IMG/VR virus record: IMGVR_UViG_3300047487_000176
Coordinates: 1-55,115 of that record
Reading direction: 5' to 3' (one strand)
DNA from: a virus
DNA length: 55,115 nucleotides
The stretch's first letter is position 1, and the number at the start of each line of letters is the position of its first letter. Below the pieces are notes generated by a model. It saw only the letters and a program-made list of their open reading frames with translations. It made no database searches and had not been told where the DNA came from. Positions 7,346-55,115 of the stretch are shown in pieces. The translations under genes and the position numbers were made by a program.

Positions 7346-7429
7346 TCACTCCATGTATCGCATGAGGCTCAGATACGTCGCGGCTCCTGCCGCAACGAGG
7401 ATCACGAAGACGTTCGCCCATGTGTCCAT
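7346..7429 (-). CDS. 27-residue single-span membrane peptide coupled to csrA
   Basis: The ATG at 7429 shares its A with the csrA stop (TGATG), so translation is almost certainly coupled to csrA. The peptide is M-D-T-W-A-N followed by a hydrophobic span (VFVILVAAGAATYLSLM) and a short R-Y-M-E tail. One transmembrane helix fills nearly the whole chain. Size and topology resemble small membrane peptides that tune a membrane protein, or a tiny holin-like or toxin-like peptide. Nothing in the sequence decides between these. The length is below usual gene-finder limits, but the exact overlap argues that it is real. Confidence 0.5.
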   Translation of the reverse strand: MDTWANVFVILVAAGAATYLSLMRYME

Positions 7430-7605
7430 CACGGCTTCTCCGCGACGGCTGGCTTCGGTGCGACCAACTCCTCGCGGAGGACAGTCGTGTCCCGCGGGGC
7501 GACGACGCCGATGCGGACGCGGCCTTGCTCTACGCCGCGCACCTCGATGACGACGTCCTTGCCGATCAATATCCGCTCGCCAATTCGTCTGGTCAGGCAC
7601 AGCAC
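7429..7605 (-). CDS. csrA: CsrA-family translational regulator
   Basis: 58 residues, the normal length. CsrA dimers bind GGA motifs in mRNA leaders and change translation and stability. The family pattern is clear: LCLTRRIGERILIG at the N-terminus (beta 1-2), VVIEVRGVEQGRVRIGVVAP (beta 3-4) and TVLREELV, which holds the arginine R44 that contacts RNA. The start is GTG, preceded by AAGGAG at a good distance. The cysteine at position 3 is unusual. It lies at the head of the small accessory genes and is coupled to a 27-residue membrane peptide. It could act on host transcripts or on the many GGA-containing ribosome sites of this phage. Confidence 0.93.
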   Translation of the reverse strand: MLCLTRRIGERILIGKDVVIEVRGVEQGRVRIGVVAPRDTTVLREELVAPKPAVAEKP

Positions 7606-7640
7606 TTGAGGCTCCTTCCTCGTTTGTGTCGGTCGGAAGC

Positions 7641-11558: not shown

Positions 11559-11562
11559 CAAA

Positions 11563-12264
11563 TCACTCCTTTGATTGATCGCTTCTCCAACTCTTCTGGT
11601 TTTCTTCCGGCGTCACCAACCGGAGGCGGCAGTGCGACTGGTGGTACAGAACCCAAGCCTTCTCAAATTCCTCGTCGGCCAGCACCCAGCCGCCGAGGTC
11701 GTCCTGCTTGAGCGGAATGCTCTCTGCCGGGTGGGGCCAGCCGGCCAGAAAGTCGTCACGCAGTTTCGCGAACGTCAGCGGGCGGACGTGATCGACTTGG
11801 CAGGTGTCCCAAGTGATCGGCTTTCCGCTGATGTCGCTGGTCAGTGACGAGGACGACGCGAATCGCAGCCTCTTGTAGGCCCGAACGTCGCGGTCGACCG
11901 CCACACGCATCCCGTGCGTCAGCCAACTCGACCGCTTCCTGAATCCGGTGCAGCACTGAACCCAAGAAAACGAGATTTCCAGACCTCCGCGGTAGACGAC
12001 GAACGTGTGATTGCACGCCGCTTTTCGCAGGACAGCCTTGGCGGATTCGTGCCGCACACGAACGCCGATGACCTCGTCCTCAAGGCCGGGGAGAATCTTC
12101 TCGTCAGGCATACTGTGACGCTGGCGGATCAGATTCAGCATGAAGTCTCCGCACTCGATGAGTTCGCCATCTGCCGTGGCCGATATGGCATTGCGGCAGT
12201 ACGCAACCAGTTCTTTCAGGCTCGCGAACTCGACGCCGGCGACCATTGTCTTTTTTCGAGCCAC
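11563..12264 (-). CDS. DUF3223-like protein with an HNH-like fold
   Basis: 233 residues. AAGGAGG lies 7 nt before the GTG start. The C-terminal half has the pattern of DUF3223/DCL-type proteins: KPITWDTCQVDHVRPLTF near residue 150, a helix-loop, then YHQSHCRLRLVTPEENQK near the end. The D-H...H-x-x-L-R-L-V-x-x-x-x-N spacing resembles an HNH nuclease in which the second half is an N in EEN. The N-terminal region (residues 1-85) holds a helix like a homing-endonuclease DNA-binding part. It may nick or cut DNA or bind structured RNA. It follows replication genes. Confidence 0.6.
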   Translation of the reverse strand: MARKKTMVAGVEFASLKELVAYCRNAISATADGELIECGDFMLNLIRQRHSMPDEKILPGLEDEVIGVRVRHESAKAVLRKAACNHTFVVYRGGLEISFSWVQCCTGFRKRSSWLTHGMRVAVDRDVRAYKRLRFASSSSLTSDISGKPITWDTCQVDHVRPLTFAKLRDDFLAGWPHPAESIPLKQDDLGGWVLADEEFEKAWVLYHQSHCRLRLVTPEENQKSWRSDQSKE

Positions 12265-16466: not shown

Positions 16467-17330
16467 ATGACTCACACTCTCCTGTCTGTACTCCACGATC
16501 TGTACGTGCCGCTCAGGTCGCTCTGCCCAAGAAGCGTCGAGAACTACGAATTCACGATTCGTGCGTTTTCGACGTTTCTTGGGCGAGAGGCGACTCTGGA
16601 CGACCTCGACGAACTGACCGTCGCGAGGTACCTAACCAATCGCGTCAAGGAGCGCGCGATCGCCACGGCCGCGAAGGACCGCGCCCAACTCCGCGCACTC
16701 CACGAGTTCAGCGTTCGCCGCAAACTTTGCGACCACTGGCCTCAGTATCCGCCGATTCGGGTGCCCGACCGCGTGCCGGAGGCGTGGTTCTCCGGCGAGA
16801 TGCAGAGGCTTCTTGACAGTGCTGGTCAAGAGAAGACGGTCCTCGACGGCATCCCCGGCGGCTTGTGGTGGCGGGCGCTCCTGCTTCTGGCCTACGACAC
16901 GGCCGAGCGTGCGACCGCTCTGACGAGCCTCCGCTGGAGGAACGTCAGAGGCTCATCGGTCCTCTTCGTGGCCGAGGACCGCAAGGGCCGTCGCCGCGAC
17001 ATCCTCCGCGAGATCGGCGAAGACACTCTGGCGGCGCTTGAAGCGATCCGTGGCGACCGCGGGCCTGACGACCTCGTCTTCCCGTGGCCTCGGACGAAGA
17101 CGTACCTCTGGCGGCGGCTCGAGATCATCCTCGAGCGAGCCGGCCTGCCTCACGGCCGAAGGGACAAGTTCCACAGAATCCGCCGGACGACCGCGTCCTA
17201 CTACGAGGCCGCCGGCGGCTCGGCGCAGCGGCTTCTTGACCATTCCGACCCGGCGACGACGAGGAAATACATCGACCCGCGGATCGTCAGGCCGCAGGCT
17301 GCGCCGGAACTGATCCCGAGGGTGTCGTGA
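16467..17330 (+). CDS. Tyrosine-family site-specific integrase
   Basis: 287 residues. GAGG stands 8 nt before the ATG. Residues 1-95 form the helical core-binding domain. The catalytic set is present: R148 in TAERATALTSLRW, K173 in DRKGRRR, H236 and R239 in HRIRR, H259 in LLDHSD and nucleophile Y268 in TTRKYID. The domain lacks an obvious long N-terminal arm-binding region, so it is a compact phage or prophage type. It would insert the element by recombination between attP and a host site. A possible attP lies about 450 nt downstream. Confidence 0.93.
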   Translation: MTHTLLSVLHDLYVPLRSLCPRSVENYEFTIRAFSTFLGREATLDDLDELTVARYLTNRVKERAIATAAKDRAQLRALHEFSVRRKLCDHWPQYPPIRVPDRVPEAWFSGEMQRLLDSAGQEKTVLDGIPGGLWWRALLLLAYDTAERATALTSLRWRNVRGSSVLFVAEDRKGRRRDILREIGEDTLAALEAIRGDRGPDDLVFPWPRTKTYLWRRLEIILERAGLPHGRRDKFHRIRRTTASYYEAAGGSAQRLLDHSDPATTRKYIDPRIVRPQAAPELIPRVS

Positions 17331-19288: not shown

Positions 19289-20204
19289 TCAGACGGCGCA
19301 GCCGCTCGTCGCCCGCCACCACGCCACGGTCTCGGCGATCCCTTCTCGCAGCGTGACCTGCGGCTCCCACCCGAGCACCTTGCGTGCCAGTGAGGCGTCG
19401 ACCGCACGGCGAGGCTGGCCGTCCGGCTTCGAGGAGTCCCAGCGGATCGTGCCGTGATGCTCGCACTCGCCGGCGATCAGTTCGGCGAGGTCTCGCATCG
19501 TCACCTCGCCGCCGCCGCCGAGGTTGACAGGCTCCGGCGTCTCGATGCGTTCGGCGGCACAAAGAATCCCTTCGGCCGCGTCGGCGACGTGCAGAAACTC
19601 GCGGCTGGCACTTCCGGTCCCCCAGAGCGTGACGTCGCCGGCATCGCAGAATCGCCGGATCATGGCTGGGATGACGTGGCTGGACGCCGGGTCGAAATTG
19701 TCCCCGGGGCCGTACAGATTGGTCGGGATCACGACGGCCCCCTCCATCCCGTACTGGGCGTGGTACTGCTTCAGGAGTTCGTAGACGGCCCTCTTCGCCA
19801 CGCCGTACCCGGCGTTCGTCGGCTCTGGGTAGCCGTTCCAGAGGTCTTCCTCCTTGAACGGCACGGGCGGCGAGACGGGGTACGAGCATACCGTCCCGAC
19901 GGCGACCGTGCGGCGGCACTCGTGCAGGCGGGCGGCCTCGACGACGTTCAGGCCCATCGCGAGGTTCGCGTATGTGAACCTGCCCGGCGTCCGCATATTG
20001 GCGCCGATTCCGCCGACCTCCGCGGCCAGATGCAAGACGACGTCCGGCCGGCAGGCTGCGAACAGTCTCGCCGTGGACCGCGGGTCGGTCAGGTCGCACA
20101 CGCGCCGCCGCGGCACGGTGACCTGCGTGCAGCCGCGCTCCTCGAGCAGCCGGCACACGACGCGGCCGAGGAACCCTGCCCCGCCGGTGACCAGCACACG
20201 GCAG

Positions 20205-20227
<23 letters not shown>
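19289..20227 (-). CDS. fcl: GDP-L-fucose synthase-like epimerase/reductase
   Basis: 312 residues, the family length. It would convert GDP-4-keto-6-deoxymannose to GDP-fucose by epimerisation and NADPH reduction. [18 protein letters not shown] (11-28) is the Rossmann GxxGxxG loop, [13 protein letters not shown] a conserved segment, GTVCSYP the serine region, and YGVAKRA the YxxxK pair. The ATG at 20227 lies 23 nt inside the end of gmd. The pair gmd-fcl is the standard order. It lies after the fibre genes and convergent to the integrase unit. Being short of the usual C-terminal extension, a reductase or epimerase variant on the same substrate is possible. Confidence 0.88.
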
Positions 20228-21185
<958 letters not shown>

Positions 21186-29231: not shown

Positions 29232-29959
29232 TGTGCTGTCATGCCCCCGTCGATCGTGAGGATGGCCCCCGTCGTCCACTTCTGCCGCAGGAGGTACTGG
29301 ATCGCCTCGGCGACGTCCTCCGGCTCGCCGAGGCCGAGGAGGTGATCGTCGACCACGGCTTGCCACTGCTTCGGAGACATCGTGTGCTCGAGCCGCTCCT
29401 GCATCGGCGTCCTGACGACGCCGGGGGCGACGGCGTTGACCCGGATGCCGGAGGGGGCCAGTTCGACCGCCAGCGCCTTGGTCAGCCCGAGCACTGCCGC
29501 TTTCGACGCGGCGTAGGCGCTCGCAGCGGCCTGTCCGACGATTCCAGCCACGCTCGCCACGAACACGATCGCGTCGGACCCGCCGGCCCGAACGGCCGGC
29601 TGCCGGAACGCCTTGGCGACGTGCCACGCCGTGTGGTAGTTCGCCGCGATCATCTCGTCCGCTTTGGCGTGCGTCTGGTATCGCAGGGGGATCAGCGAGT
29701 GGATGCCGGCGGCGTGGACGACGCCATCGAACTTCCCGTGGACCGCAGCGATGTCCGCGAGCACGTCGTCGGTGCGGTCGCCCAGCGACACGAGGTCGAT
29801 GCTCTTCCAGCCGTGGTTGCCTGCTGGCAGTGCGTCGTGGACTTCCCGCAGGCGGCCGTAGTCCCGGCCGAGCAGGTAGACGTCGTGGCCTCCGGCGGCC
29901 AAGAGTCTCGCCGTGGCGGCCCCGATGCCGCTGGACCCTCCGGTCACGAGGTATCTCAC
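29228..29959 (-). CDS. Short-chain dehydrogenase/reductase, 3-oxoacyl-ACP reductase-like
   Basis: 243 residues. The GTG start overlaps the KAS III stop as GTGA. RYLVTGGSSGIGAATARLL carries the TGxxxGIG nucleotide loop, and NYHTAWHV is typical. Catalytic residues are S136 (VASVAGI), Y149 and K153 (YAASK). The C-terminal RVNAVAPGVVRTPM and GAILTIDGGM match FabG-like reductases. Following a KAS III and ACP in the same operon, it probably reduces a 3-oxoacyl-ACP to 3-hydroxyacyl-ACP. A sugar dehydrogenase role cannot be excluded. Confidence 0.88.
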   Translation of the reverse strand: MRYLVTGGSSGIGAATARLLAAGGHDVYLLGRDYGRLREVHDALPAGNHGWKSIDLVSLGDRTDDVLADIAAVHGKFDGVVHAAGIHSLIPLRYQTHAKADEMIAANYHTAWHVAKAFRQPAVRAGGSDAIVFVASVAGIVGQAAASAYAASKAAVLGLTKALAVELAPSGIRVNAVAPGVVRTPMQERLEHTMSPKQWQAVVDDHLLGLGEPEDVAEAIQYLLRQKWTTGAILTIDGGMTAQ

Positions 29960-30891
29960 TCGGCGACCTCCACGAGGTCGTGGAGCCTCGTCGTGGACAG
30001 GTCGGCGGCGACGGCGCAGTACGACCAGCCACCGCCGAATCCGGCCATGACCGTCTTCCCCTTGCCGCCGGTGGTCACGAGCGCCAGCGGGATCGACGCG
30101 CTCGACACGTTGCCGAACCGCCGGACGACGCCGTCGACCCACTTTGACTCCGGCACGCCGCACTTCTCGCGGAGGTGGCGGAGCATGAACTGGTTCGGCT
30201 GGTGCGGCACGATCTGGTCGACCGTGTCCATCGTCCAGCCGGCCGCAGCGAGCGACTCGGTGACCATCATCGGCACCGTCCGCACCGCGAACTCAAAGAC
30301 CTCGGCGCCGTTCATCTTCAAGTACGCCGTGTCGCCGTGACCGAGCGACAGATGATCCGCCCCGCTCCCGTCGCTGCCGAAGGCGACGTGCATGGGCGGA
30401 GCGTCCTCGTCCCGCTCGAGGATCGTCGCGCTCACTGCGTCGCCGAAGAGAGGCTCGGTCGCCCTGTCGTTCGGCGAGACGACGGTCGACAGGCAGTCGC
30501 CGGCGACCAAGAGGACGCGGGGCACGCCGGCGGCCACGAGGCCGGACGCCACCGCGAGGCCGTAGGTGTAGCCGGAGCACCCTTGGTTCACGTCGAACGC
30601 AGCACACGCCGTGCCGAGATTGAGCCTGCCGTGCAGGACGTTCGCGACCGGGGGGATGCGCTGATCCGGCGTCTGCGTGACGACGACGATCGCCTGCACC
30701 GCCCGGCCGAGCACCTCGCGGCACGCGGCCTCGGCCAAGTCGGTGAGCGTCAGGCGATCGACGACACGACGCTCGCGGACGCCGGTGGCGGCCTCCAGTT
30801 TCGACGCCGCGGCGCCCCAGCGCGACTGATCTCGCACGGTCGAAGGCACGGCCACGGCGATGTCGCGGATCGCGACGCCTTGGATGCTCAT
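29956..30891 (-). CDS. Beta-ketoacyl-ACP synthase III-like condensing enzyme
   Basis: 311 residues. The ATG overlaps the ACP stop as ATGA. It would join an acyl-CoA or acyl-ACP starter with malonyl-ACP. The active-site triad is present: C105 in VNQGCSGYTYGL, H230 in IVPHQPNQFM and N261 in RFGNVSSASIPLAL. Length and the thiolase-like halves match the FabH family; the Q-P-N-Q after the histidine also fits FabH rather than chain-elongating KAS I/II. Being outside any fatty-acid operon and beside an ACP, it most likely makes a short specialised acyl group. Confidence 0.9.
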   Translation of the reverse strand: MSIQGVAIRDIAVAVPSTVRDQSRWGAAASKLEAATGVRERRVVDRLTLTDLAEAACREVLGRAVQAIVVVTQTPDQRIPPVANVLHGRLNLGTACAAFDVNQGCSGYTYGLAVASGLVAAGVPRVLLVAGDCLSTVVSPNDRATEPLFGDAVSATILERDEDAPPMHVAFGSDGSGADHLSLGHGDTAYLKMNGAEVFEFAVRTVPMMVTESLAAAGWTMDTVDQIVPHQPNQFMLRHLREKCGVPESKWVDGVVRRFGNVSSASIPLALVTTGGKGKTVMAGFGGGWSYCAVAADLSTTRLHDLVEVAE

Positions 30892-31106
30892 TGGATTCCC
30901 ACGAGCGCGGCCAAGTCGCCGACGGTCCTTGCTTCCATGAGCCGTGCGGCGCTCACGATCACGCCGTACTTCTTGTCGGCCATCGCCATGAACCCCATCG
31001 CGCTCATGGAGTCCCACCCGGCAAGGTGGTTCAGGGACATCTCCGGCTGGCTGGTGCCGGCCGGCTGCTCGACCAGTTGGTCGAGCGCTTCGCAGAACTC
31101 GCTCAT
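30888..31106 (-). CDS. Acyl carrier protein
   Basis: 72 residues. The ATG overlaps the acyltransferase stop as ATGA. LAGWDSMSAMGFMAM holds the D-S-M phosphopantetheine site with S33, and the following helices (VSAARLMEARTVGDLAALV) complete a small four-helix fold. The overall charge is less acidic than housekeeping ACPs. It would carry the acyl chain between the condensing enzyme, reductase and acyltransferase of this cluster. A host phosphopantetheinyl transferase must activate it, as none is seen here. Confidence 0.9.
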   Translation of the reverse strand: MSEFCEALDQLVEQPAGTSQPEMSLNHLAGWDSMSAMGFMAMADKKYGVIVSAARLMEARTVGDLAALVGIQ

Positions 31107-44223: not shown

Positions 44224-44589
44224 CTACACCGTGGAATCGGTCATACGAAACTTCAACTGGCCGCGAACCACGTCGGCCGTTTGTGCTGTGACACTCGCGC
44301 TCTCGAGGATCGCCCGCCGGCTGACCGAGTAGGCCGAACTGGTGAACGCGAGGATGCCGTTGGTTCCGATCAGCGTCTGCGGGTCGGTGCCGCCGGCGTA
44401 GAGGAAGTCCACCGTCACCGAGCCGCCCGTGATCGCTCCGGTCGCGACCTGCACCGTGTACCCCGTCGCGTCGCCGACGCCCGTCATGTCCACGATCTCG
44501 GCGACAGGCGTCTCCACCTGCACGCTGGTCACCGTCGCGGCGATGCCGTTGAAGGTGAAGGTCGCGTTGTAGGGCACGCCGATCGGCAC
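44224..44589 (-). CDS. Tail-tube-like protein, copy 3
   Basis: 121 residues. YNATFTFNGIAATVTSVQV opens the chain, then VDMTGVGDATGY, SVTVDFLYAGG and an end KFRM. The plan (FxFNGxxxTxTSVxV, a turn, strand VxVxF, a final RxxFRV-type strand) is shared with the next two genes. It is likely a tube or tube-like protein. The gene is next to the chaperone genes, the usual site of the major tail protein. Confidence 0.65.
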   Translation of the reverse strand: MPIGVPYNATFTFNGIAATVTSVQVETPVAEIVDMTGVGDATGYTVQVATGAITGGSVTVDFLYAGGTDPQTLIGTNGILAFTSSAYSVSRRAILESASVTAQTADVVRGQLKFRMTDSTV

Positions 44590-44591
44590 GG

Positions 44592-44948
44592 TCAGACCTG
44601 CACGCGGAAGGAGGCGCTCCCTCGCACCAAGTCACCTGCGGACGCGGTGACCTGCACCGACACGCACGTCGCGACGGCGCCCGTAAAGGAGAACGCTCCG
44701 GCGATCGAGATCGCCCCGGTCGCCCCGATGGCCGGCGGCGTGCCGGAGATGAACTCCACCTCGACGTTTGGCCGCTCGTCTGATGTGCGGTGCGTGATGT
44801 ACGTCGGCTCGAAGTCGTCGCGGCCAAGGCCCATGTGCGGAGCCGAGACCGTCGCACGCTCGGAGCCGCCGACGTATCGCACGCTGGTCGATGCGAACGT
44901 GGCGCCGTTGAACGTGAAAGTCGTGCCTTGGGATGAGACTCCCGCCAT
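44592..44948 (-). CDS. Tail-tube-like protein, copy 2
   Basis: 118 residues. AGVSSQGTTFTFNGATFASTSVRYVG opens the chain and SASFRVQV ends it. It is close to copy 1 (AGISAQGLTFSFGGTT...SATFRV) at both ends and lies head to tail with it. Beta-rich throughout. The ATG sits 3 nt after the stop of copy 1. Confidence 0.68.
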   Translation of the reverse strand: MAGVSSQGTTFTFNGATFASTSVRYVGGSERATVSAPHMGLGRDDFEPTYITHRTSDERPNVEVEFISGTPPAIGATGAISIAGAFSFTGAVATCVSVQVTASAGDLVRGSASFRVQV

Positions 44949-44951
44949 CGC

Positions 44952-45287
44952 TTACGCGACGCGGAACGTCGCACTCCCAGAGACGAGGGCGCCGACCGAC
45001 CCGCCGAGCGACGCGGACGCACAGGTCGCGTTGCCGCTGAAGTTGATCGGCCCCGTGATCGACAGGGCGCCGGACGCACCGGCGGTGAGGATGTTCGTGG
45101 AGATGTAGTCGACGGTGACCTCGCGGTCGGTCGCAAAGCCGCCGACGAACTCTCGCCGCTGGTTCGGGCCGATGCCGAGGTGGCTGCCGTCGATGAGGTC
45201 TTGCGTGTCATTGACCTGCACGCTCGTGATCGTCAGCGTCGTGCCGCCGAACGAAAACGTCAGTCCCTGTGCGGAAATACCAGCCAT
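44952..45287 (-). CDS. Tail-tube-like protein, copy 1
   Basis: 111 residues. AAGGAGG precedes the ATG. AGISAQGLTFSFGGTTLTITSVQV begins the tube-like fold, then SHLGIGPNQRREFVGG, EVTVDYIS and SATFRVA. It is the first of three tandem paralogues. Which one forms the main tube cannot be told from sequence alone; this copy has the strongest ribosome site. Confidence 0.7.
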   Translation of the reverse strand: MAGISAQGLTFSFGGTTLTITSVQVNDTQDLIDGSHLGIGPNQRREFVGGFATDREVTVDYISTNILTAGASGALSITGPINFSGNATCASASLGGSVGALVSGSATFRVA

Positions 45288-45326
45288 TGCCGCGCCTCCT
45301 TGCGCCTAGTTGTGTTTTTCTGTCGG

Positions 45327-47303: not shown

Positions 47304-47792
47304 TCACGTCCCCATCGCGTAGAACTCGTACCGTTCGGAAGGCACGCCGCCAACCCGGAGGATCGATCCCCCGACGGTCGTTCCGAACCCGTCCGAGTTC
47401 GGGCACGACAAAAGCCACGCCCCCAGCGGCCGGATCGGAAACCCGCGGAGCGTCAGGCTCCCGAGGTTGACCATCGGCGAGAAGTTCCACGACGTCACGT
47501 CCTGCCGGAAGATCGAGAACTGCGTGCCGTTCCAGCCGGCCGACAGGCCGATCGCCGACGTCTCCGAGAGGTTCTTCACGAAGAGCAACTTCACGACCGC
47601 GAGGCCGCCGGTGGCGAAGTTGATCTCGTCGTAGCCGATCGCGCCGAACGTCCTCCGCTCCGCGTACACGCGGTCGCAGTCGCCGGCGTCCACGCCGATC
47701 GAGATCGGCTTCACCTCGACACCCGTCGCCAGCCCGCTCTGCGTCGTGCGGCGGGCGTCGACGCTTGCGCGAATCTGGGCGGTGAGGGTCAT
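47304..47792 (-). CDS. Small beta-rich virion protein, paralogue
   Basis: 162 residues from the ATG at 47792, overlapping the connector stop as ATGA. TLTAQIRASVDARR, then FATGGLAVVKLLFVKNLSETSAIGLSAG, with the V-K-L-L-F-V-K-N element, and LTLRGFPIRPLGAWLLSC. It is close in plan to the 46842-47300 product. Function not known. Confidence 0.5.
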   Translation of the reverse strand: MTLTAQIRASVDARRTTQSGLATGVEVKPISIGVDAGDCDRVYAERRTFGAIGYDEINFATGGLAVVKLLFVKNLSETSAIGLSAGWNGTQFSIFRQDVTSWNFSPMVNLGSLTLRGFPIRPLGAWLLSCPNSDGFGTTVGGSILRVGGVPSERYEFYAMGT

Positions 47793-48439
47793 CGGTAGCC
47801 GGCCCACCCGGAGGCCGCCAAGAGCGTGTCGAACGTCTGCGGCACCGGCAGCACCTGCGAGTAGCCGGTGACCACGGGCTGCCGCATCTCGTACCAGTGT
47901 GCGACCAAGAGCGCAATCGCCTGCCGGAGGATCGGTGGCGTCGAGGCGCCGGAGGGGCCGTAGCCGGCCGTCCACTGCACGACCACGCTGTTCTCGTCGC
48001 CACGAACCGCCGGCCAAACGCCGTTGTAGTTCGGGTAGATGCGGCCCGGCGTCGTGTAGCGGTCGACCTGAAAGTCGCCGGCGGCGCTCGAAAGCGAAAG
48101 ATTCTGCCCTGCCTCGTTGCGGTAGGTGACCGTCACGGTCTCCGGCTGCATCGGCGGGCGGGGCAGAATGAGTTCCCACAGCGGGAACACGTCATAGCGG
48201 GCTTGCCAGACCTGCGTGATGACGCTGATGTCGAGGATGTCCTCGACGTACTGCCTCGCGGCCGTGATGTACGTCTGGACGAGAGCGTCGGAGGTGTCGT
48301 CGTCGATCCTGCACTGCGCCTTCGCCTCGGCGAGGCTCAACGGCTCGACCACGGGCGGCGTGGCTTGATACAGGCTCCGGTACGGCGTGATGCCGATCGT
48401 CGGTGACCTTGGCTCGCCGTAGACGATGGTGACGTTCAT
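47789..48439 (-). CDS. Head-tail connector, phiE125 gp8/gp6-like
   Basis: 216 residues. VEPLSLAEAKAQCRIDDDTSDALVQTYITAARQYVEDILDISVITQVW contains the typical helix pair LSLAEAKxxxRID...DxxxxxYIxAARxxxE of gp6-like connector proteins. A beta-rich second half (VTVTYRNEAGQNLSL; VVVQWTAGYG) and a C-terminal LRQAIALLVAHWYE helix follow, as in phiE125 gp8. It forms the ring below the portal. Confidence 0.85.
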   Translation of the reverse strand: MNVTIVYGEPRSPTIGITPYRSLYQATPPVVEPLSLAEAKAQCRIDDDTSDALVQTYITAARQYVEDILDISVITQVWQARYDVFPLWELILPRPPMQPETVTVTYRNEAGQNLSLSSAAGDFQVDRYTTPGRIYPNYNGVWPAVRGDENSVVVQWTAGYGPSGASTPPILRQAIALLVAHWYEMRQPVVTGYSQVLPVPQTFDTLLAASGWAGYR

Positions 48440-48639
48440 TTCTTCGGCTTCCTGCGGTGCTGCTCGACGGCCCGCTCGAGCGGAGGATCGGTCGCGTCCG
48501 CGGTCTCAACCTCTGGCGGAGCAGGCCGGACCTCCTCGATCAAGCCGCGGGCGGCTAGGACGCGGGCCATCCCGTCGCCCCAGTCGAACTCTTGGCCTTC
48601 CTTGTAGTTCGCGAAGTTCTTCTTGATCCGCACTCTCAT
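48436..48639 (-). CDS. Small protein, unknown, in the connector region
   Basis: 67 residues. The ATG overlaps the glycosyltransferase stop as ATGA. A basic strand RVRIKKNFANYKEGQEFDWGDGMARVLAARGLIEEV is followed by an acidic, proline-rich tail. Such short proteins between capsid and connector genes often occur in HK97-type clusters; no function known. Confidence 0.55.
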   Translation of the reverse strand: MRVRIKKNFANYKEGQEFDWGDGMARVLAARGLIEEVRPAPPEVETADATDPPLERAVEQHRRKPKK

Positions 48640-49364
48640 GCCACGAATCCCCACGCGCCGTCCGGCGCCTGCTGGCCGCTGTTCCAATACTCGGTCGTGT
48701 GCTGCTGAATCTTGCCGCCTTCGGTGGTGCGGCTGGGCCATGTGATCATCAGTTCGGCGTGGCCGACGCTGACGTGCGTCGCGATGCCCAGCGTGTTGCC
48801 GGCGGACTCCCATGCGCGCCAGAATGCGATGTCCTCATCGACGTGGCCGCCCGTGAACTCGCCCTGCTCGTTGGCTTTCGCCAAGAACCACGGCTTGGGC
48901 GTCTTCTTGAGCGCCGAGCACCGCAGGAACGTGCAGCCGAAGTGCGCTGTCGCGACCCGCTGGACGGGCTTCTTGAACCAGTCCTCGTCGACCGTCGTCT
49001 GCTGCTCCGGCGTCACGCCCGGCAGGGCGAACATCACCGCGTTCGCCTCCCGCTTCGTCTGGAGCGGAGCGATCGCGTCCACGCCCGAGTGCATCAGGAG
49101 TGCGAGCAGCGCCTCGATCGTCTTCGACGTGAAGATCGTGTCGTAGTCGAAAGTGAGGATCACGTCGTGGTTGTCCACGACGGTTTCCATCGAGCGCTGG
49201 AGGCATTGGCCCCAGAACGCCCCGGTGTACTTGATCGGCGAGATGCGATGCGGCGCGAGAGCCTGCGCGACGCAGAAGAAGTTGTCCGTGAAGCCGAGGC
49301 GTGGCGTGCTCATCAGAGCAGCCACTTTGACCTCGGCTTCCACGTTGCCGATACGCAGTAGCAT
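48636..49364 (-). CDS. Glycosyltransferase-like protein in the head operon
   Basis: 242 residues from the ATG at 49364, 7 nt after AAGGAG; the frame is open 18 codons further. VILTFDYDTIFTSKTIEALLALLMHSG carries the strand-DxD-helix of GT-A transferases, KREANAVMF follows, and HVDEDIAFWRAWESAGNTLGIATHVSVGHAELM looks like the acceptor-side E-D-x-x-x-x-x-R segment. Position between capsid/decoration genes and the connector is odd for a glycan enzyme. It may glycosylate the capsid or decoration protein. Confidence 0.7.
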   Translation of the reverse strand: MLLRIGNVEAEVKVAALMSTPRLGFTDNFFCVAQALAPHRISPIKYTGAFWGQCLQRSMETVVDNHDVILTFDYDTIFTSKTIEALLALLMHSGVDAIAPLQTKREANAVMFALPGVTPEQQTTVDEDWFKKPVQRVATAHFGCTFLRCSALKKTPKPWFLAKANEQGEFTGGHVDEDIAFWRAWESAGNTLGIATHVSVGHAELMITWPSRTTEGGKIQQHTTEYWNSGQQAPDGAWGFVA

Positions 49365-49439
49365 GGAGTGCTCCTTGGAAGGAGCGGGGGCGCCTCCATG
49401 CGCCTGCTCGGCCGTCATGGCCGTCCCGCTGTACGGGAA

Positions 49440-49877
49440 TCAGCCCTTGACCCACTTGGCGACGTTGACCTCGGTCTCGGTCGACGGGAACTCCTCGCCT
49501 CGCGACAGGAGCGCCACGACGCTGACCGCGGCGGTCACGTCGGGGGTCACCGTCACGCGGAGATACCGCTTCCGAGCCTTGCAGTCGACGTCCATCTTGA
49601 CGATGGAGCCGACCGAGGTGCTCACCGCCGCCATCGTGAAGCCGCTCGCGCCGTCCTTCACGAAGGCCGCGACGTCGCTGTAGGACGAGTTGTCGTCGGA
49701 CTCCTCGACCTTCAGGACGCTCGCGAACGACGTGCCGGTGGAGGGCGCCTTCGACACGACCACGGAGGCGTAGTCATAGTTCCGGCGGTCGACGACCATC
49801 GTGGTGGTGGCGGTCGAGCCGACGGTGACCGGGCCGCTCGTGTGGCCGACGACCTTGAGGTTCTGGCTGTGGATCAT
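49440..49877 (-). CDS. Probable capsid decoration or head protein
   Basis: 145 residues. Beta-rich: TSGPVTVGSTATTTMVVDRRNYDYASVVV, SFASVLKVEESDDNSSYSDVAAF, RKRYLRVTVTPDV. It follows the major capsid gene directly, where decoration or head-stabilising proteins commonly map. A short gap with a weak ribosome site separates it from the glycosyltransferase. Confidence 0.55.
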   Translation of the reverse strand: MIHSQNLKVVGHTSGPVTVGSTATTTMVVDRRNYDYASVVVSKAPSTGTSFASVLKVEESDDNSSYSDVAAFVKDGASGFTMAAVSTSVGSIVKMDVDCKARKRYLRVTVTPDVTAAVSVVALLSRGEEFPSTETEVNVAKWVKG

Positions 49878-49896: not shown

Positions 49897-51261
49897 TCAC
49901 GAGGCCGCGGACTTGAGGGCCACCACCGGGCCGACCTCGCTGGTCGATCCGAGGGAGTGGTGGTTCACGTCGAACCGCATCGTCCCTTGCAGGAGGAGTT
50001 GGTCCGTCGTGGCGTAGACCTGATCGTAGAGCCGGACGCTGAAGTCACGCCGGCGGGCGTAGATGCTCGACAGGCTCATGTTGCCGAAGAGCACCTTGAT
50101 CTTGCTGACGTCCGCACCCAGCGTGCTGTTCATCACATGCACGAGCGTGACGGGGTAGCCGAGGAACGTGTCGACCGTTCCAGCCTGCACGTTCTCGACG
50201 GTGTTGCCACCGGCGGCGTACTTCAGGCGGGCGATCGACGCGGCGTAGCCGGCCGGAGACACGTACCACCGAGCACCGGCCCTCGCGTAGATCGGCAACT
50301 TGCCCATCGCGGCGAGGAAGTCCTCGAGGTCGAGGGTCTCGAAGCCGGTGTTGCCAGCGATGGCACCCACAACCGAGGCGGTGTGCGTGCCGTCGTTGAT
50401 CTTGTCAACGATGCCGTGGATGCCACCGTAGGTTCCGAGCGTCCCGTCACCGAGCCAGCCGCAGAGGTCGATCTTGTAGGCGAGGCTCTGGGCGAACTCG
50501 GTGGCAACTGCATCGGCCAATCCCACCACGCCCTGCGAGTCTTCGACCAACTCGGTAGACATCCTGCAACCGACCGCGAGTTTGCGGGCCACGAGCGACA
50601 CGTTGCCGTAGGTCGGCTCGCTCTCGGTCACGGCCGAGCCTTCGCCGACGAAGTAGGCGGTCGTGCCGGTGAGCCGCTTGGGGATGACCAGCGTGTCGCG
50701 GGTCATCGAGATGTTCTCGCACGCCGGCGGGAGCGTCCCGTAGGACTCGACCAGACGGATCACGCGATTGGCGAACTCGTCGGGGACGAGCGCTCCGCCG
50801 GAGGCGTTGCTGTTTTCGCCCATCGCACGGCTCTCGACGCCGTGATCCTTGCACCACCGGAGGTCTTCGGAGTTCTTGAAGATGTGCGCCCGGAGCCACC
50901 GGCCGCAGCGGTAGGCGCTCTCGACGGCGTCGGGGCCGTCACCGAAGGCACGCAGGGAGGTGTGATGCGGGAGGCTGGCCCGAATCTCGACCTTCTTCTG
51001 CTCCTCGGCGCGAGCCTCGGTCTCGGCGGGCGTCACGACGGGGGCGGGGGCCGCCTTCTCGATGACCTCGCGGAGTTCCTTCTCCTTCTCGGCGAGCCGA
51101 CGCTCGAAGCCGATCTGGGCGGTCAGTTCGCTGGCCTGAGCGCCGAGCGCGACGAACTCCTGATTGTCCTCGGCCGAGCGATCCTCGATCTTGCCGAGTT
51201 CGGCCATGCGAGCGGCGACCGCGGCGGCCCGGTCCTGCAACTTCTTGAGATTCGACGCCAT
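49897..51261 (-). CDS. Major capsid protein, HK97 family
   Basis: 454 residues from the ATG at 51261, after AAGGAG; an in-frame start 10 codons upstream is less favoured. Residues 1-95 form the coiled delta domain (KKLQDRAAAVAARMAEL...), probably removed by the protease. The fold signature follows: GGALVPDEFANRVIRLVESYGTLPPAC, DTLVIPKRLTG, AYFVGEGSAVTESEPTYGNVSLVARKLA, MSTELVEDS and a later RWYVSPAGYAAS; FLGYPVTLVHVMNS and MRFDVNHHSLG near the end. It builds the icosahedral shell. Confidence 0.94.
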   Translation of the reverse strand: MASNLKKLQDRAAAVAARMAELGKIEDRSAEDNQEFVALGAQASELTAQIGFERRLAEKEKELREVIEKAAPAPVVTPAETEARAEEQKKVEIRASLPHHTSLRAFGDGPDAVESAYRCGRWLRAHIFKNSEDLRWCKDHGVESRAMGENSNASGGALVPDEFANRVIRLVESYGTLPPACENISMTRDTLVIPKRLTGTTAYFVGEGSAVTESEPTYGNVSLVARKLAVGCRMSTELVEDSQGVVGLADAVATEFAQSLAYKIDLCGWLGDGTLGTYGGIHGIVDKINDGTHTASVVGAIAGNTGFETLDLEDFLAAMGKLPIYARAGARWYVSPAGYAASIARLKYAAGGNTVENVQAGTVDTFLGYPVTLVHVMNSTLGADVSKIKVLFGNMSLSSIYARRRDFSVRLYDQVYATTDQLLLQGTMRFDVNHHSLGSTSEVGPVVALKSAAS

Positions 51262-51413
51262 GATTGGCCTGCTCCTTGTTGAGCCGGCCATACGCGACGA
51301 TGCGACGGCCGGCGGGTGTTCCCGCTAGCGCGCCGCAGGCGTGAATCCTCACGTCGCTCGCACTGACCATCGCGACATCCATCGCGATGCTTGTATCTAC
51401 TTGTAGGTTAACA
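51262..51413 (-). promoter_or_regulatory. Gap between protease and capsid genes, possible promoter
   Basis: 152 nt, one of the larger minus-strand gaps in the structural block. On the minus strand TTGATG lies near 51417 and a TAGATA stretch near 51395, at a poor distance. CATCGCGATG, a palindrome, is near 51377-51386 and a TCGCGATG word is repeated. A regulatory site that boosts capsid expression would suit the location, but no clean promoter is seen. Confidence 0.3.
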
Positions 51414-53468
51414 TCAACCGTCGGTGTCGTGCAACTTAGTCCAGAGCAGAGCCTCCTGAAGCGCGGCCAACTTGGCCGCTGCATCAGTCGCATCGACGTC
51501 CACGACCGGCTCCGGCTGCTGCACCTGCTCGACCTGCTGCTCGACCTCGGCGACCGCAGGCTCCGACCGCTCTGCTTCGCGTTTCATCTGCGCCACCTTT
51601 CGTGCTGACCACACTTGCCCGGCGTTTCCGCCCCACAGTTCCCACGCCACAAACCCCGGCTTTTCAGCACCCGGCGTGTCCCAGCCGGGCGACTTGCTCG
51701 CCGATTCGTGGCGTGCGAACCACGCATTCATCTCGCGGACGTGGTCCGGCGTGAGTTCCTCGCGGCGTGCGATCTTATTCGCCCTCGCGACCGTCTCCGG
51801 CTTGAGGCCGTCGCCGGACTTGCCCTCCTCGTGGAGGCGGAGTCCACGGCGGGCCGCGGCGGCCATGCCGGCCGTCGGCTTCAGGTCGACTTCTCGCTCC
51901 TCGACGTCCGCCTCGACGCTCCGCTCCTTCGACGACTTCGGGTGGTCGGCCGGCAGGAGGTCGTTGTCGGTGACGTACTTCGCGTCCTGCGGCCTGCCGT
52001 TTCGCAGGAGGTACAGGTAGGCGTTCACGCGGGCCATCGCCCACGCGCCGCGGCTCACGCCCGGCCGGTGGCTGGTCGAATACGCCCCGGCGCCTCGCCG
52101 GTAGACCGCGAGCAACTGCCCGAGCGTCGTCCGAGACCACGACGGCTTCTCGTCCTCACGCATGGCTTCGTTGTGGTCGCGGACCTTGTTCTGGAGGCCG
52201 GCTCGAACCGCCTGCGACACGGCGATCCGGCCACTCGCGTTCTTCGCCGATCCCTCTTTGTTCTTGTCGCTGCCGGCGATCCGGTCCTTCTCCGGGGCGG
52301 GCGTCGACTGGGACTTGTCGCCGGCGGCACGGTCCTCTTCGTCGTCCTCGTCTGGCTCCGGCTGGTCGGTCTTCGTGAGTTCCGAGACCATCACGGCGAC
52401 CATGTAGTCTTCAGGCTCGCCGTCGTCGAACGGCGTCACCACGGCCAGCGGCGCCTCCGGCGTCGCCGTCATGCCTTGGATCGAGCCTTCACGCATGACG
52501 TGCTCGACGCGGCCGATGCTGCCGTCCCACGCGACGAAGTCGCCTTCGGAGAGTTCGTTCGGGGCGGCGCGATCCTCGGCCGTTCCAGATTCTGGAATCT
52601 GGAATGCAGCCTCCGGCGTCCGAACTTCGCTCTCTCGCTGTGCGAGAGAGCGACGCTGCACCCACTTCTCGCCGCCGTCGCCGCCGGCCAGCATCCACTC
52701 GACCCACGCCGGCGAGCCGGACCAGCCGACGGAACGGACCTCGTGGCACCGCTGATGCGTGCCGGCGAGGAACTCGACCTCCTCGACGGAGAGAACCTCG
52801 CGCTCCGCGATGCGTTCGGCGACCGCGACGAGCCGCTCGTCGAAGTCACCACGCGACTTGGCGGCCCGCAGACCCTTCCGAGCCGCGTTCGCCATCGTCT
52901 GATTCGGCCGGAAAGCGTCGCCGAGGGCCATTTCGATCGCCCGACGGCTCACGACCACGCTGGACGCCTCGTAGGCAGGCCGAACGACTGGTCCGACGTC
53001 GTCGAGCAGTGAGATCGAGCGGATTTCTCGCCGGCGGATGCCTCGTTCGTCCGTGCTCCACGAGTCTCCGCCGCTCCGAGACACTGCGAACGCGAAACTC
53101 GACCCGGTGACGTACCCGCCGGAGACCAATTCGACGACCTCGTCGGCCGTTTTCGTCTTCGGAGGCATCATTTCGTAGCGCAGGCCGTAGGGATCGGCCT
53201 TCAGGCGGAGCGAACCGTTCGCGGAACGCGCCAAAAGCATATTTTTGTCGTGGTTGAACACGCCGACGACGTCGGGATTCGTCTTCAGGACGTCATCGAA
53301 CGCCCGCGGGTGGATGGTCTCGATGAAACCACCCAAATCTCTCGAAGGCGACTGGAATACGGCCGCATACCCGACAATCACGGGCCGCTTTTCGCCGCCG
53401 TCGACCTCGCGGTACTCGATCGCCGTGTCGGATGCGGTGATCCGGCGCTCAATTTCGTTCGCGGACAT
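51414..53468 (-). CDS. Prohead protease fused to repeated C-terminal domains
   Basis: 684 residues, about three times the usual protease length. Residues 15-175 are the S78-type prohead protease: VIVGYAAVFQSPS, VVGVFNHDKNMLLAR with H73, GGYVTGSSFAFAV with S123/S124 and REIRSISLLDDVGPVVRPAY. Two diverged copies of one domain follow at 191-278 (MANAARKGLRAAKS...WVEWMLAGG) and 532-631 (MAAAARRGLRLHEE...VAWELWGGN). Between them lies a third domain at about 425-525 with RRGAGAYSTSHRPGVSRGAW. The end is a Q/E-rich coil. The protease matures the head. The extra parts may be scaffold or packaged. Confidence 0.85.
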   Translation of the reverse strand: MSANEIERRITASDTAIEYREVDGGEKRPVIVGYAAVFQSPSRDLGGFIETIHPRAFDDVLKTNPDVVGVFNHDKNMLLARSANGSLRLKADPYGLRYEMMPPKTKTADEVVELVSGGYVTGSSFAFAVSRSGGDSWSTDERGIRRREIRSISLLDDVGPVVRPAYEASSVVVSRRAIEMALGDAFRPNQTMANAARKGLRAAKSRGDFDERLVAVAERIAEREVLSVEEVEFLAGTHQRCHEVRSVGWSGSPAWVEWMLAGGDGGEKWVQRRSLAQRESEVRTPEAAFQIPESGTAEDRAAPNELSEGDFVAWDGSIGRVEHVMREGSIQGMTATPEAPLAVVTPFDDGEPEDYMVAVMVSELTKTDQPEPDEDDEEDRAAGDKSQSTPAPEKDRIAGSDKNKEGSAKNASGRIAVSQAVRAGLQNKVRDHNEAMREDEKPSWSRTTLGQLLAVYRRGAGAYSTSHRPGVSRGAWAMARVNAYLYLLRNGRPQDAKYVTDNDLLPADHPKSSKERSVEADVEEREVDLKPTAGMAAAARRGLRLHEEGKSGDGLKPETVARANKIARREELTPDHVREMNAWFARHESASKSPGWDTPGAEKPGFVAWELWGGNAGQVWSARKVAQMKREAERSEPAVAEVEQQVEQVQQPEPVVDVDATDAAAKLAALQEALLWTKLHDTDG

Positions 53469-55101
53469 CGTTCTCCTCCTCGAAATGAGCCTCGAACCAG
53501 CGATCGGTGACCGTTTCGTAGGGTTTTCCGCTGCGATGACAGTCCAAAAGCAGGTCTTTCGAGCGCTCTAGCCACGATACCACGAACGAGTCAATGTCTC
53601 GACCAGTAGCATTTGCTGCGTCGAGTAACTCTTCACGCAGTTTCTCCTCGACTTGGCCGAACCATTGCGTGATTTTCTCCGCTTTCGACCGGCGGGCGAG
53701 GATTCCGTCGGCTTCGACGGCTGCGATGCGTCGGAGAGTCGTGCGGAAAAGTGCTTCGGATGCGTCGATGGATCGGTCGGCCTCGGCTTCCGCTGGCGGT
53801 TGGTCGCCGTCTTGCTGCTCTGGAGGCTGCTCCTCGGCCGGGAGGCTGGTCGGAGGGGCTTGGGGCGGCTGGCCGTTCGGTGTCTCAAGGGTGAATGCGT
53901 CCAGAAGTTGCATATTGACCTGCACGAACCGCTTCTTGCCGAGGTCGCCGGGGAGCGGGTTGTAGCCGATCTCCGCCCGGTACTCGTCGACATCGAGGGC
54001 GCCCGTGTTGAACGCCTCGCGGAGGTACGTTGAGCGGGCCGCGTAGTCGCCGGCCATGAGCGAGTTCATATCGAACCCGACGAAGTACGTCTTGTCGTCC
54101 ACCACGAGGTCGCGACGGCACGCCAACTCCCACCGCCGGCACCACGGCATGATGCTGAACGTCTTGTAGTCGATCGCCGCCTGCTCCACCGTGCTGTAGC
54201 GGACATTCGACAGGTCGCCGACCAGATGGGGAGGCACCCGGTATGCCCGGCAGACCTCCTCCAACTGGAAGCGCCGTGTGGACACAAGTTCCGCGTCTGC
54301 GTTGTTGACCGGATCGTCCTTCTTCTTGAAGCCGAACGGCATCACGACGGTCTTGAACGCTCGCTCCGGCCCGCGATGTGCCTCGTCCCACTGCTGGCGG
54401 AACCGCTGGAGAGCCTCCGGCTTGTGGGGCTGGTCGGTCTCGATGTACGTGCCGACCTTGGCTCCGTTGCCGAAGAACGCGCTCGAGTGCAGTTCCGTCG
54501 CCCGAGCGAGGGCGATCGCGTCCTTCGACAGGGCCGTTGGCACGTACCCTCGAACGCCGTCCGATGACATCCACCGCAGGTGAAAAATCTCGTCCTGCCG
54601 GTACTCCGTCGGCTGCGGGTTCGGGTCGGTCACCGTCGCCGGCTCGCGGTAGTAGTACCGCAGTTTGCCGTTCTCGAGCCGCTTCACCTCCATCCGCGAC
54701 GGGTGGAGCGGGATCAACTCGTCCACGGCGCCGCGGCGGATGCTGCCCTTGATGTGGGCGTAGGCGTTCCCCCACAAGAGAAGCCACGACTGCATGAGTT
54801 CCTTGAACTCAAAACTCGTCATCCACGAGTTGGGCTGGTAGGCCAGAATCTCGTGGAGCGGCTGGTCGTCGGCGATCTCCTTGCCGCCGCCGGGGAGCCG
54901 TCGGTACAGGTTCGTCGGCATCGCCGCGATCGACTCCGACAGGAGCCGGACGCAGGCCAGCACGGCCGTGCATTCAAGCGCCGTCTCAGGCGAGACGTGG
55001 ACGCCGGCGGCCGTCTTCCGCGACTCCGCGATCTCCTCGAAGACCCGTGACAGGCTCTGCGACCGCAGCGACAAGAGGCCCGTGTACGGCGCTTCGTCCA
55101 T
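53449..55101 (-). CDS. Portal protein, HK97 gp3-like
   Basis: 550 residues. TALECTAVLACVRLLSESIAAMPTNLYRR near residue 40-68 is the family's N-terminal helix set, followed by HEILAYQPNSWMTSFEFKELMQSWLLLWGNAYAHI, DEIFHLRWMSSDGVRGY, FFGNGAKVGTYI, FQLEEVCRAYRVPPHLVGDLSNVRYSTVEQ and FDMNSLMAGDYAARSTYLREAFNTGALDVDEYR, all in the standard order. A C-terminal Q/E/P-rich linker (PPEQQDGDQPPAE) and helical end extend it beyond the usual 400-430 residues. It forms the packaging channel and head-tail vertex. The 20-nt overlap with the protease couples the two genes. Confidence 0.95.
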   Translation of the reverse strand: MDEAPYTGLLSLRSQSLSRVFEEIAESRKTAAGVHVSPETALECTAVLACVRLLSESIAAMPTNLYRRLPGGGKEIADDQPLHEILAYQPNSWMTSFEFKELMQSWLLLWGNAYAHIKGSIRRGAVDELIPLHPSRMEVKRLENGKLRYYYREPATVTDPNPQPTEYRQDEIFHLRWMSSDGVRGYVPTALSKDAIALARATELHSSAFFGNGAKVGTYIETDQPHKPEALQRFRQQWDEAHRGPERAFKTVVMPFGFKKKDDPVNNADAELVSTRRFQLEEVCRAYRVPPHLVGDLSNVRYSTVEQAAIDYKTFSIMPWCRRWELACRRDLVVDDKTYFVGFDMNSLMAGDYAARSTYLREAFNTGALDVDEYRAEIGYNPLPGDLGKKRFVQVNMQLLDAFTLETPNGQPPQAPPTSLPAEEQPPEQQDGDQPPAEAEADRSIDASEALFRTTLRRIAAVEADGILARRSKAEKITQWFGQVEEKLREELLDAANATGRDIDSFVVSWLERSKDLLLDCHRSGKPYETVTDRWFEAHFEEENDVRERN

Positions 55102-55102
55102 G

Positions 55103-55115
55103 TCAGAACACCATC
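55103..55115 (-). CDS. Last codons of an upstream gene, probably terminase large subunit
   Basis: Only 13 nt remain. The minus strand gives a TGA stop at 55105-55103, one base before the portal ATG. In HK97-type gene order the large terminase precedes the portal, but the residues visible (ending V-F) cannot prove it. Confidence 0.3.

Follow-up and report, generated by a model that had tools for sequence, protein, structure and literature searches.

The window, i.e., the whole stretch of DNA that was analysed, is an IMG/VR virus record of 55,115 bases. Its minus strand carries, in this order, genes for the portal, the prohead protease, the HK97-type capsid protein, a small beta-sheet protein (dec), a glycosyltransferase (GT), a small protein and a gp6-like connector, followed by two small genes and the head completion, neck and tail terminator genes (Table 1). 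The portal gene was recognised by profile search (Pfam Phage_portal, 1e-90), and the protease upstream of the capsid gene was of the S78 type by profile. The initial annotation had placed a GT between a probable decoration protein and the connector genes, and this arrangement was borne out, since the neighbours (portal, protease, capsid, connector and neck) are virion genes by profile. The structure of dec gave weak jelly-roll matches in Foldseek, including 3j4u_H (TM 0.42), together with many unrelated beta folds. The protease gene (51414-53468, minus strand; 684 aa) has a long extension with a DUF5824 match. The record stops where the portal gene starts (55101-55115), and the terminase genes (identified by eye), which lie upstream of the portal in the related locus L244, are absent; the genome is therefore probably incomplete. 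A tyrosine integrase gene was detected with Pfam at 16467-17330 on the plus strand, so the phage may be temperate.

The GT gene is a real open reading frame of 242 aa with an ATG start, and its stop overlaps the start of the downstream small gene (ATGA). An alternative longer in-frame start lies at 49418; the conserved start is the ATG at 49364 with its Shine-Dalgarno sequence, as judged from 65 distinct full-length sequences, 4 of which use GTG.

Table 1. Positions of the genes and RNA features in the window
Feature	Position	Strand	Basis or remark
CsrA homologue (csrA), GTG start at 7605	7429-7605	-	CsrA domain over cut-off, E 1.7e-17
Hairpin GAGG-AAGGAG-CCTC, GGA hexaloop with Shine-Dalgarno of csrA	7608-7621	-	
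Hairpin AATCA-AAGGAG-TGATT before Prim-Pol gene (start 11558)	11561-11576	-	Seen in the window
Hairpin GCGC-AAGGAG-GCGC with Shine-Dalgarno of tail-region gene t1 (44952-45287)	45292-45305	-	
gp6-like head-tail connector	47789-48439	-	Profile
Small gene overlapping GT stop	48436-48639	-	phrog_2616/6852-like; weak match to head-tail connector family
GT-A-fold glycosyltransferase (GT), predicted, 242 aa	48636-49364	-	Profile, alignment, predicted structure
Structured RNA leader of GT (predicted)	49365-49439	-	Folding, covariance model; without Rfam family
Leader hairpin P4, stem holding Shine-Dalgarno	49370-49385	-	
Leader hairpin P3, GGCGC-ATGGAG-GCGCC, GGA in hexaloop	49389-49404	-	
Leader hairpin P2	49409-49423	-	
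Leader hairpin P1	49424-49438	-	
dec, small beta-sheet protein, decoration/cement candidate	49440-49877	-	phrog_5707; profile; weak structure matches
HK97-type major capsid protein	49897-51291	-	Profile, 2e-31

Profile searches with the window GT were weak: the Pfam family Glyco_trans_2_3 was matched below its curated cut-off (E 0.0065; 16.7 vs 27 bits), no PHROGs match was better than E 0.29, NCBIfam gave none, and of two PDB sequence searches one was empty and the other returned a single chance match. The same Pfam family was matched by 31 of 34 aligned GT relatives at E ≤ 0.1, with a best E of 5.4e-8. An AlphaFold model built on the 34-sequence alignment (pLDDT 83) gave 129 matches in the PDB at E ≤ 0.001, which were GT-A enzymes plus a few related-fold nucleotidyltransferases lower in the Foldseek list; the top Foldseek match was STIV A197 (2c0n). 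VIA-align matched the model to LH3, A197, Mimivirus R699 and others, with the best score for LH3 (Z 17.4, 206 residues, 4.6 Å) and Z 16.8 over 164 residues at 2.8 Å for A197. The DYDT motif occupies residues 73-76, and D73/D75 (DxD), D176/D178 and H202 are invariant in all 34 relatives. The gene thus encodes, by the predicted model, a GT-A-fold glycosyltransferase with putative catalytic activity: the reading frame, the fold and the invariant acidic motifs agree with the GT-A-like enzyme with DYDT first proposed inside the head module, and the structure prediction then suggested upholds it at the fold level. The protein shares the fold, the DxD motif, the acidic pair and the late histidine with the GT2-like Glyco_trans_2_3 enzymes, but falls below the curated cut-off of that family. 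It resembles A197, an archaeal virus GT, in size, GT-A core and viral origin, yet differs by an identity of 13-14% and by virus type. Alternatively, the protein might serve the head as a structural or chaperone-like part, retaining the GT fold without catalysis, as its virion-like conservation (see below) and the best VIA-align matches would allow, the latter falling in LH3 on a GT-like domain (residue 285-293 onward), which we take to be the non-catalytic accessory domain of that enzyme; the invariance of the usual catalytic and metal-binding positions, however, leaves this a very slight probability.

Relatives were collected with the GT as the query, and the best 80 of 288, all at least 74% identical, were kept. 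The small connector-side gene followed the GT in 80 of these 80 loci, and dec preceded it in 77, while the remaining 3 contigs begin within 111 nt of the GT. Because this set was chosen by the GT itself, the search was repeated from the capsid gene. The GT was located within 1000 nt downstream in 74 of the 80 capsid-seeded loci, i.e., in 74/74 with room for it, as the remaining 6 loci stop 1 to 494 nt past the capsid match. Over 101 distinct loci, the mean pairwise identity was 73.8% for the GT, 77.0% for the capsid and 66.4% for the connector; where the genes were present, it was 71.5% for the terminator (67 loci), 65.6% for the portal (44), 64.8% for dec (96) and 62.4% for the closure protein (83). 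The GT was more identical than the capsid in 34% of the GT-capsid comparisons, and dN/dS in pairs with dS of 0.05-1 was 0.249 for the GT vs 0.270 for the capsid. Remote capsid relatives (60-62%), namely, L244/L249 on one contig, L250 and L252, retain the GT at 63-74%; the remote relative L251 ends at the capsid gene. A chance reading frame or a recent cargo gene was rejected on the fixed position and the capsid-like conservation. The GT belongs to the stable core of the head-assembly module in an uncultivated siphophage-type lineage, and its placement in that module is firmer than initially claimed.

One lineage accounts for all of these loci, which were gathered in scans seeded with the GT, the capsid or the leader. 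Among 50,697 named phage records, none matched the GT in tblastn, and dec likewise had no match; the capsid matched 19 records, every one at below 30% identity. A first genome scan for relatives gave no match, and a second one, over 84,980 species genomes, returned a single contig, within a Planctomycetaceae metagenome-assembled genome (MAG). The recognised genes of this contig are phage genes and the contig is also filed, at equal length, in IMG/VR, so that the host link, which rests on binning, is a hint only. Among 392 genomes from the phylum of this MAG, a prophage search detected the GT in 2, namely, the seed and a partial match (E 8.8e-6).

The fixed position and the conservation of the GT bear on what it might modify. 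Phage GTs often act on surface glycans of the host (also noted in excerpts of PMC12619734), and the window GT could do so late in infection or during lysogeny, masking receptors or excluding superinfecting phages, its place in the head module then reflecting no more than operon convenience; the integrase, the accessory sugar cassette of the window and structure matches that include the wall-glycan GTs TarP and RmlT would suit this role. We consider this unlikely, because the GT is unlike variable surface-modifying GTs in its fixed position and capsid-like conservation (74/74), and its soluble GT-A core fills nearly the whole 242-aa chain in the structure match. Glycosylation of hypermodified phage DNA shortly before packaging carries a still lower probability. 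Virus-encoded DNA-modifying GTs are known (cited in excerpts of PMC12619734), being expressed late, next to the packaging proteins, would fit, and C5 DNA methylase domains were detected in 6 of 23 records (G394, G404, G406, G407, G411 and G413); against this, no C5-methylase was matched in the window, a thymidylate synthase-type enzyme (Thymidylat_synt) was found in 0/23 records with controls matched in 9/14, and Tet_JBP was found in 0/23 with its control silent. A glycosylated virion would be the best reading.

The putative acceptor that fits best is a virion protein, with the major capsid protein as the likeliest candidate. The distance correlation of the GT was 0.52 with the capsid, 0.60 with the portal and 0.62 with the closure protein; the capsid is therefore not singled out, its value being no higher than those of the other two. 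dec was not detected in L244 and L250, where the GT is present, nor before the GT leaders of L173, L178 and L187, which makes five distinct leaders. As the GT is retained where dec is missing, dec is unlikely as the sole acceptor and was rejected in that role. In these five loci, the capsid gene and the GT leader are separated by a very strong long hairpin. A collagen-like acceptor, an idea taken from the LH3/ColGalT matches, was discarded, as no Gly-X-Y runs occur among the predicted proteins of the window.

Regarding the sugar donor, the Gmd pathway had been proposed as its source. Gmd and an Fcl-like gene are present in the window and in its nearest long relative, and Gmd (PF16363) was detected in 1 of the 22 other records of at least 40 kb, all 22 of which carry the GT; a missing Gmd is soft evidence, as records may be partial. 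As the occurrence of the GT is not tied to that of Gmd, this pathway was rejected as the general donor source, and a nucleotide sugar supplied by the host would be the simplest reading. The accessory sugar cassette (19289-21185, 1228-2307, 461-1258 and 29956-31017, all on the minus strand) comprises Gmd, an Fcl-like epimerase, a DegT aminotransferase, a second GT-like reading frame (recognised by eye; no Pfam or PHROG match) and a ketoacyl synthase III-like one (by eye). DegT was present in 5 of 23 records, window included.

Nearly every distinct leader folds into four hairpins, P1 to P4, which take up the 73-82 nt from dec to the GT. The Shine-Dalgarno sequence AAGGAG precedes the GT, but in the best fold predicted for each of the 87 distinct leaders, GGAG is fully paired. 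The initial annotation had called the ribosome site strong and concluded that the GT is made with the virion proteins; the site itself stands, whereas its strength is doubtful in terms of access, given that it is predicted to be base-paired in a conserved stem in every leader, and the conclusion drawn from it is not supported. Thirty leader positions are invariant over 88 sequences. A covariance model returned one match per locus, at the GT, in 26/26 sources, all belonging to the lineage used to build the model (E ≤ 7e-11; next best E 0.23). A DNA-pattern scan of IMG/VR for the leader gave at least 120 stretches; among the matches listed, 99 loci were newly fetched, of which 98 have the GT no more than 60 nt away and one reaches its contig end 42 nt after the leader. 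None of 4227 Rfam families exceeded its gathering score across the window, and the sole Rfam entry listed at the leader was MIR844, on the wrong strand (20.4 vs 70 bits).

Covariation in the RNAalifold structure was thin: 2 of 14 pairs were changed on both sides, in 5 cells, a number reached in 0/500 shuffles, and most pairs were invariant. Leader conservation could thus partly reflect sequence-specific binding or a function at the DNA level. The RNAalifold consensus picks an alternative pairing, GCGGG:CCCGC, which is unchanged in 87/87 distinct rows, would occupy the strand that otherwise pairs the Shine-Dalgarno sequence and may represent a second predicted state of the leader. Folds forced into this pairing were on average 9.8 kcal/mol weaker and left GGAG wholly free in 0/87 leaders, with a mean of 3.3 of its 4 letters paired; the two-state leader is accordingly a proposal only. 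An intrinsic terminator was discarded because no run of T comes after the final stem.

A GGA in a hairpin hexaloop is the classical CsrA site. All 87 distinct leaders have a GGA loop, in P3 only (71), in P2 only (8) or in both (8). A strict GGA hexaloop hairpin was present in 85/87 vs 0.43 in shuffles, the leaders without it being L094 and L244. The P3 loop reads A-N-G-G-A-N, and the GGA hairpin lies mostly 22-27 nt before the Shine-Dalgarno sequence. In glgC-type CsrA leaders, an upstream GGA hairpin is combined with a second GGA at the Shine-Dalgarno sequence. The GT leader is similar in both respects, but its Shine-Dalgarno GGA lies inside a stem.

The phage encodes a CsrA homologue of its own, and csrA was detected in 21 of 23 virus records (the window and 20 of 22 other long records). 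Self-regulation of CsrA is classical in bacteria. A hairpin of this GGA-loop kind carries the Shine-Dalgarno sequence of csrA in 15/21 records, its one loop being closed by several unrelated stems, and such a start hairpin was present in 13 of 17 distinct upstreams, vs 0.1 expected by flank shuffle. Three small genes without PHROG match lie between the tail terminator and the tape measure (44224-45287, minus strand), of which t1 and t2 are mutually similar; start hairpins were found in 49 of 50 distinct upstreams of t1 (0.64 by shuffle) and in 30 of 36 of t2 (0.48 by shuffle). None was found at dec among 43 upstreams having ANGGA, nor at the GT start itself among 48 upstreams (30 nt) having ANGGA. 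Since the Shine-Dalgarno sequence of the GT lies in a stem and not in a GGA loop, the mode of control at the GT would differ from that at csrA, t1 and t2. The RNA-binding arginine of CsrA (R44 of RsmA per excerpts of PMC4066749; aligned by eye) is kept in 21/21 homologues, and RsmA binds a hairpin with an AAGGAU loop (PMC4066749, in excerpt). CsrA occurs in 43 of 119 genomes of the phylum of the MAG.

On these patterns, the GT leader probably answers to the phage-encoded regulator; that CsrA would bind the leader, and with what sign of effect, is what we infer from sequence. Alternatively, the leader might be no CsrA target: its hairpins would work by themselves, damping translation or affecting RNA processing or stability, and its GGA loops would be incidental. 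P1, P2 and P4 need no protein, L094 and L244 lack the strict hexaloop hairpin and covariation is thin, all of which would be compatible with such hairpins; nevertheless, the GGA loop shifts between P2 and P3 and is absent from both in none of the 87 leaders, and the start hairpins of csrA, t1 and t2 stand far above shuffled levels while dec has none despite its 43 ANGGA upstreams. We therefore regard action of the hairpins alone as the less probable reading.

The best explanation, to which we assign a probability of roughly one in two, is that the GT is a core enzyme of virion building whose translation is controlled by the phage-encoded CsrA. A soluble, metal-dependent GT-A enzyme would add a sugar, supplied as a donor by the host, to a virion protein during assembly, the capsid being the likeliest candidate. 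The conserved leader would hold GT output down, with P4 pairing the Shine-Dalgarno sequence away, and the phage CsrA would bind the GGA hexaloop upstream in the leader and time GT translation. The same CsrA would also time translation of the two tail-region genes, and it appears to regulate itself via a hairpin of the same kind at its own start. A more tentative extension, which we hold to be possible, is an autonomous phage CsrA regulon that would comprise csrA itself, the tail-region genes and the head-module GT, in which the GT leader would be a two-state switch timing capsid glycosylation within head assembly.

In mycobacteriophages, Che8 and others, phage GTs are considered responsible for glycans on subunits of the capsid and the tail tube (Freeman 2023, as cited in excerpts of PMC11256854 and PMC12619734). 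The window GT is likewise phage-encoded and would have a comparable virion role. The GTs of mycobacteriophage Maravista, as described in these excerpts, are located near the 3′ genome end, whereas the window GT lies beside the capsid gene; the window GT has no sequence match to any named phage; and the excerpts report neither a structured leader nor a CsrA link for the mycobacteriophage enzymes, while both are predicted here. CsrA homologues were reported in 30 of 2517 phages (PMC7366521, in excerpt), and phage and plasmid CsrA/RsmA proteins have been proposed to steer the host, including CRISPR control (Campa 2021, PMC8450108, in excerpt). The lineage of the window is similar in that CsrA is carried by phages, but csrA is near-universal in it, and the sites predicted here map to genes of the phage itself (csrA, the tail-region genes and the GT), in contrast to the host targets proposed in those excerpts. 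A literature search found no paper on a phage CsrA acting on phage genes, including the excerpts of PMC8450108, PMC7366521, PMC12038007 and PMC4066749.

The conserved leader, together with the phage's own CsrA, is the surprise of this locus, and the leader structure is one not described before. Phage GTs are usually optional and variable, whereas this lineage of uncultivated phages keeps its GT as firmly as its capsid gene; protein glycosylation thereby becomes a candidate for a core step in building the particle. Phage CsrA is usually seen as an anti-host tool; a lineage with predicted CsrA sites on its own genes would make a phage-internal translation programme directly testable.
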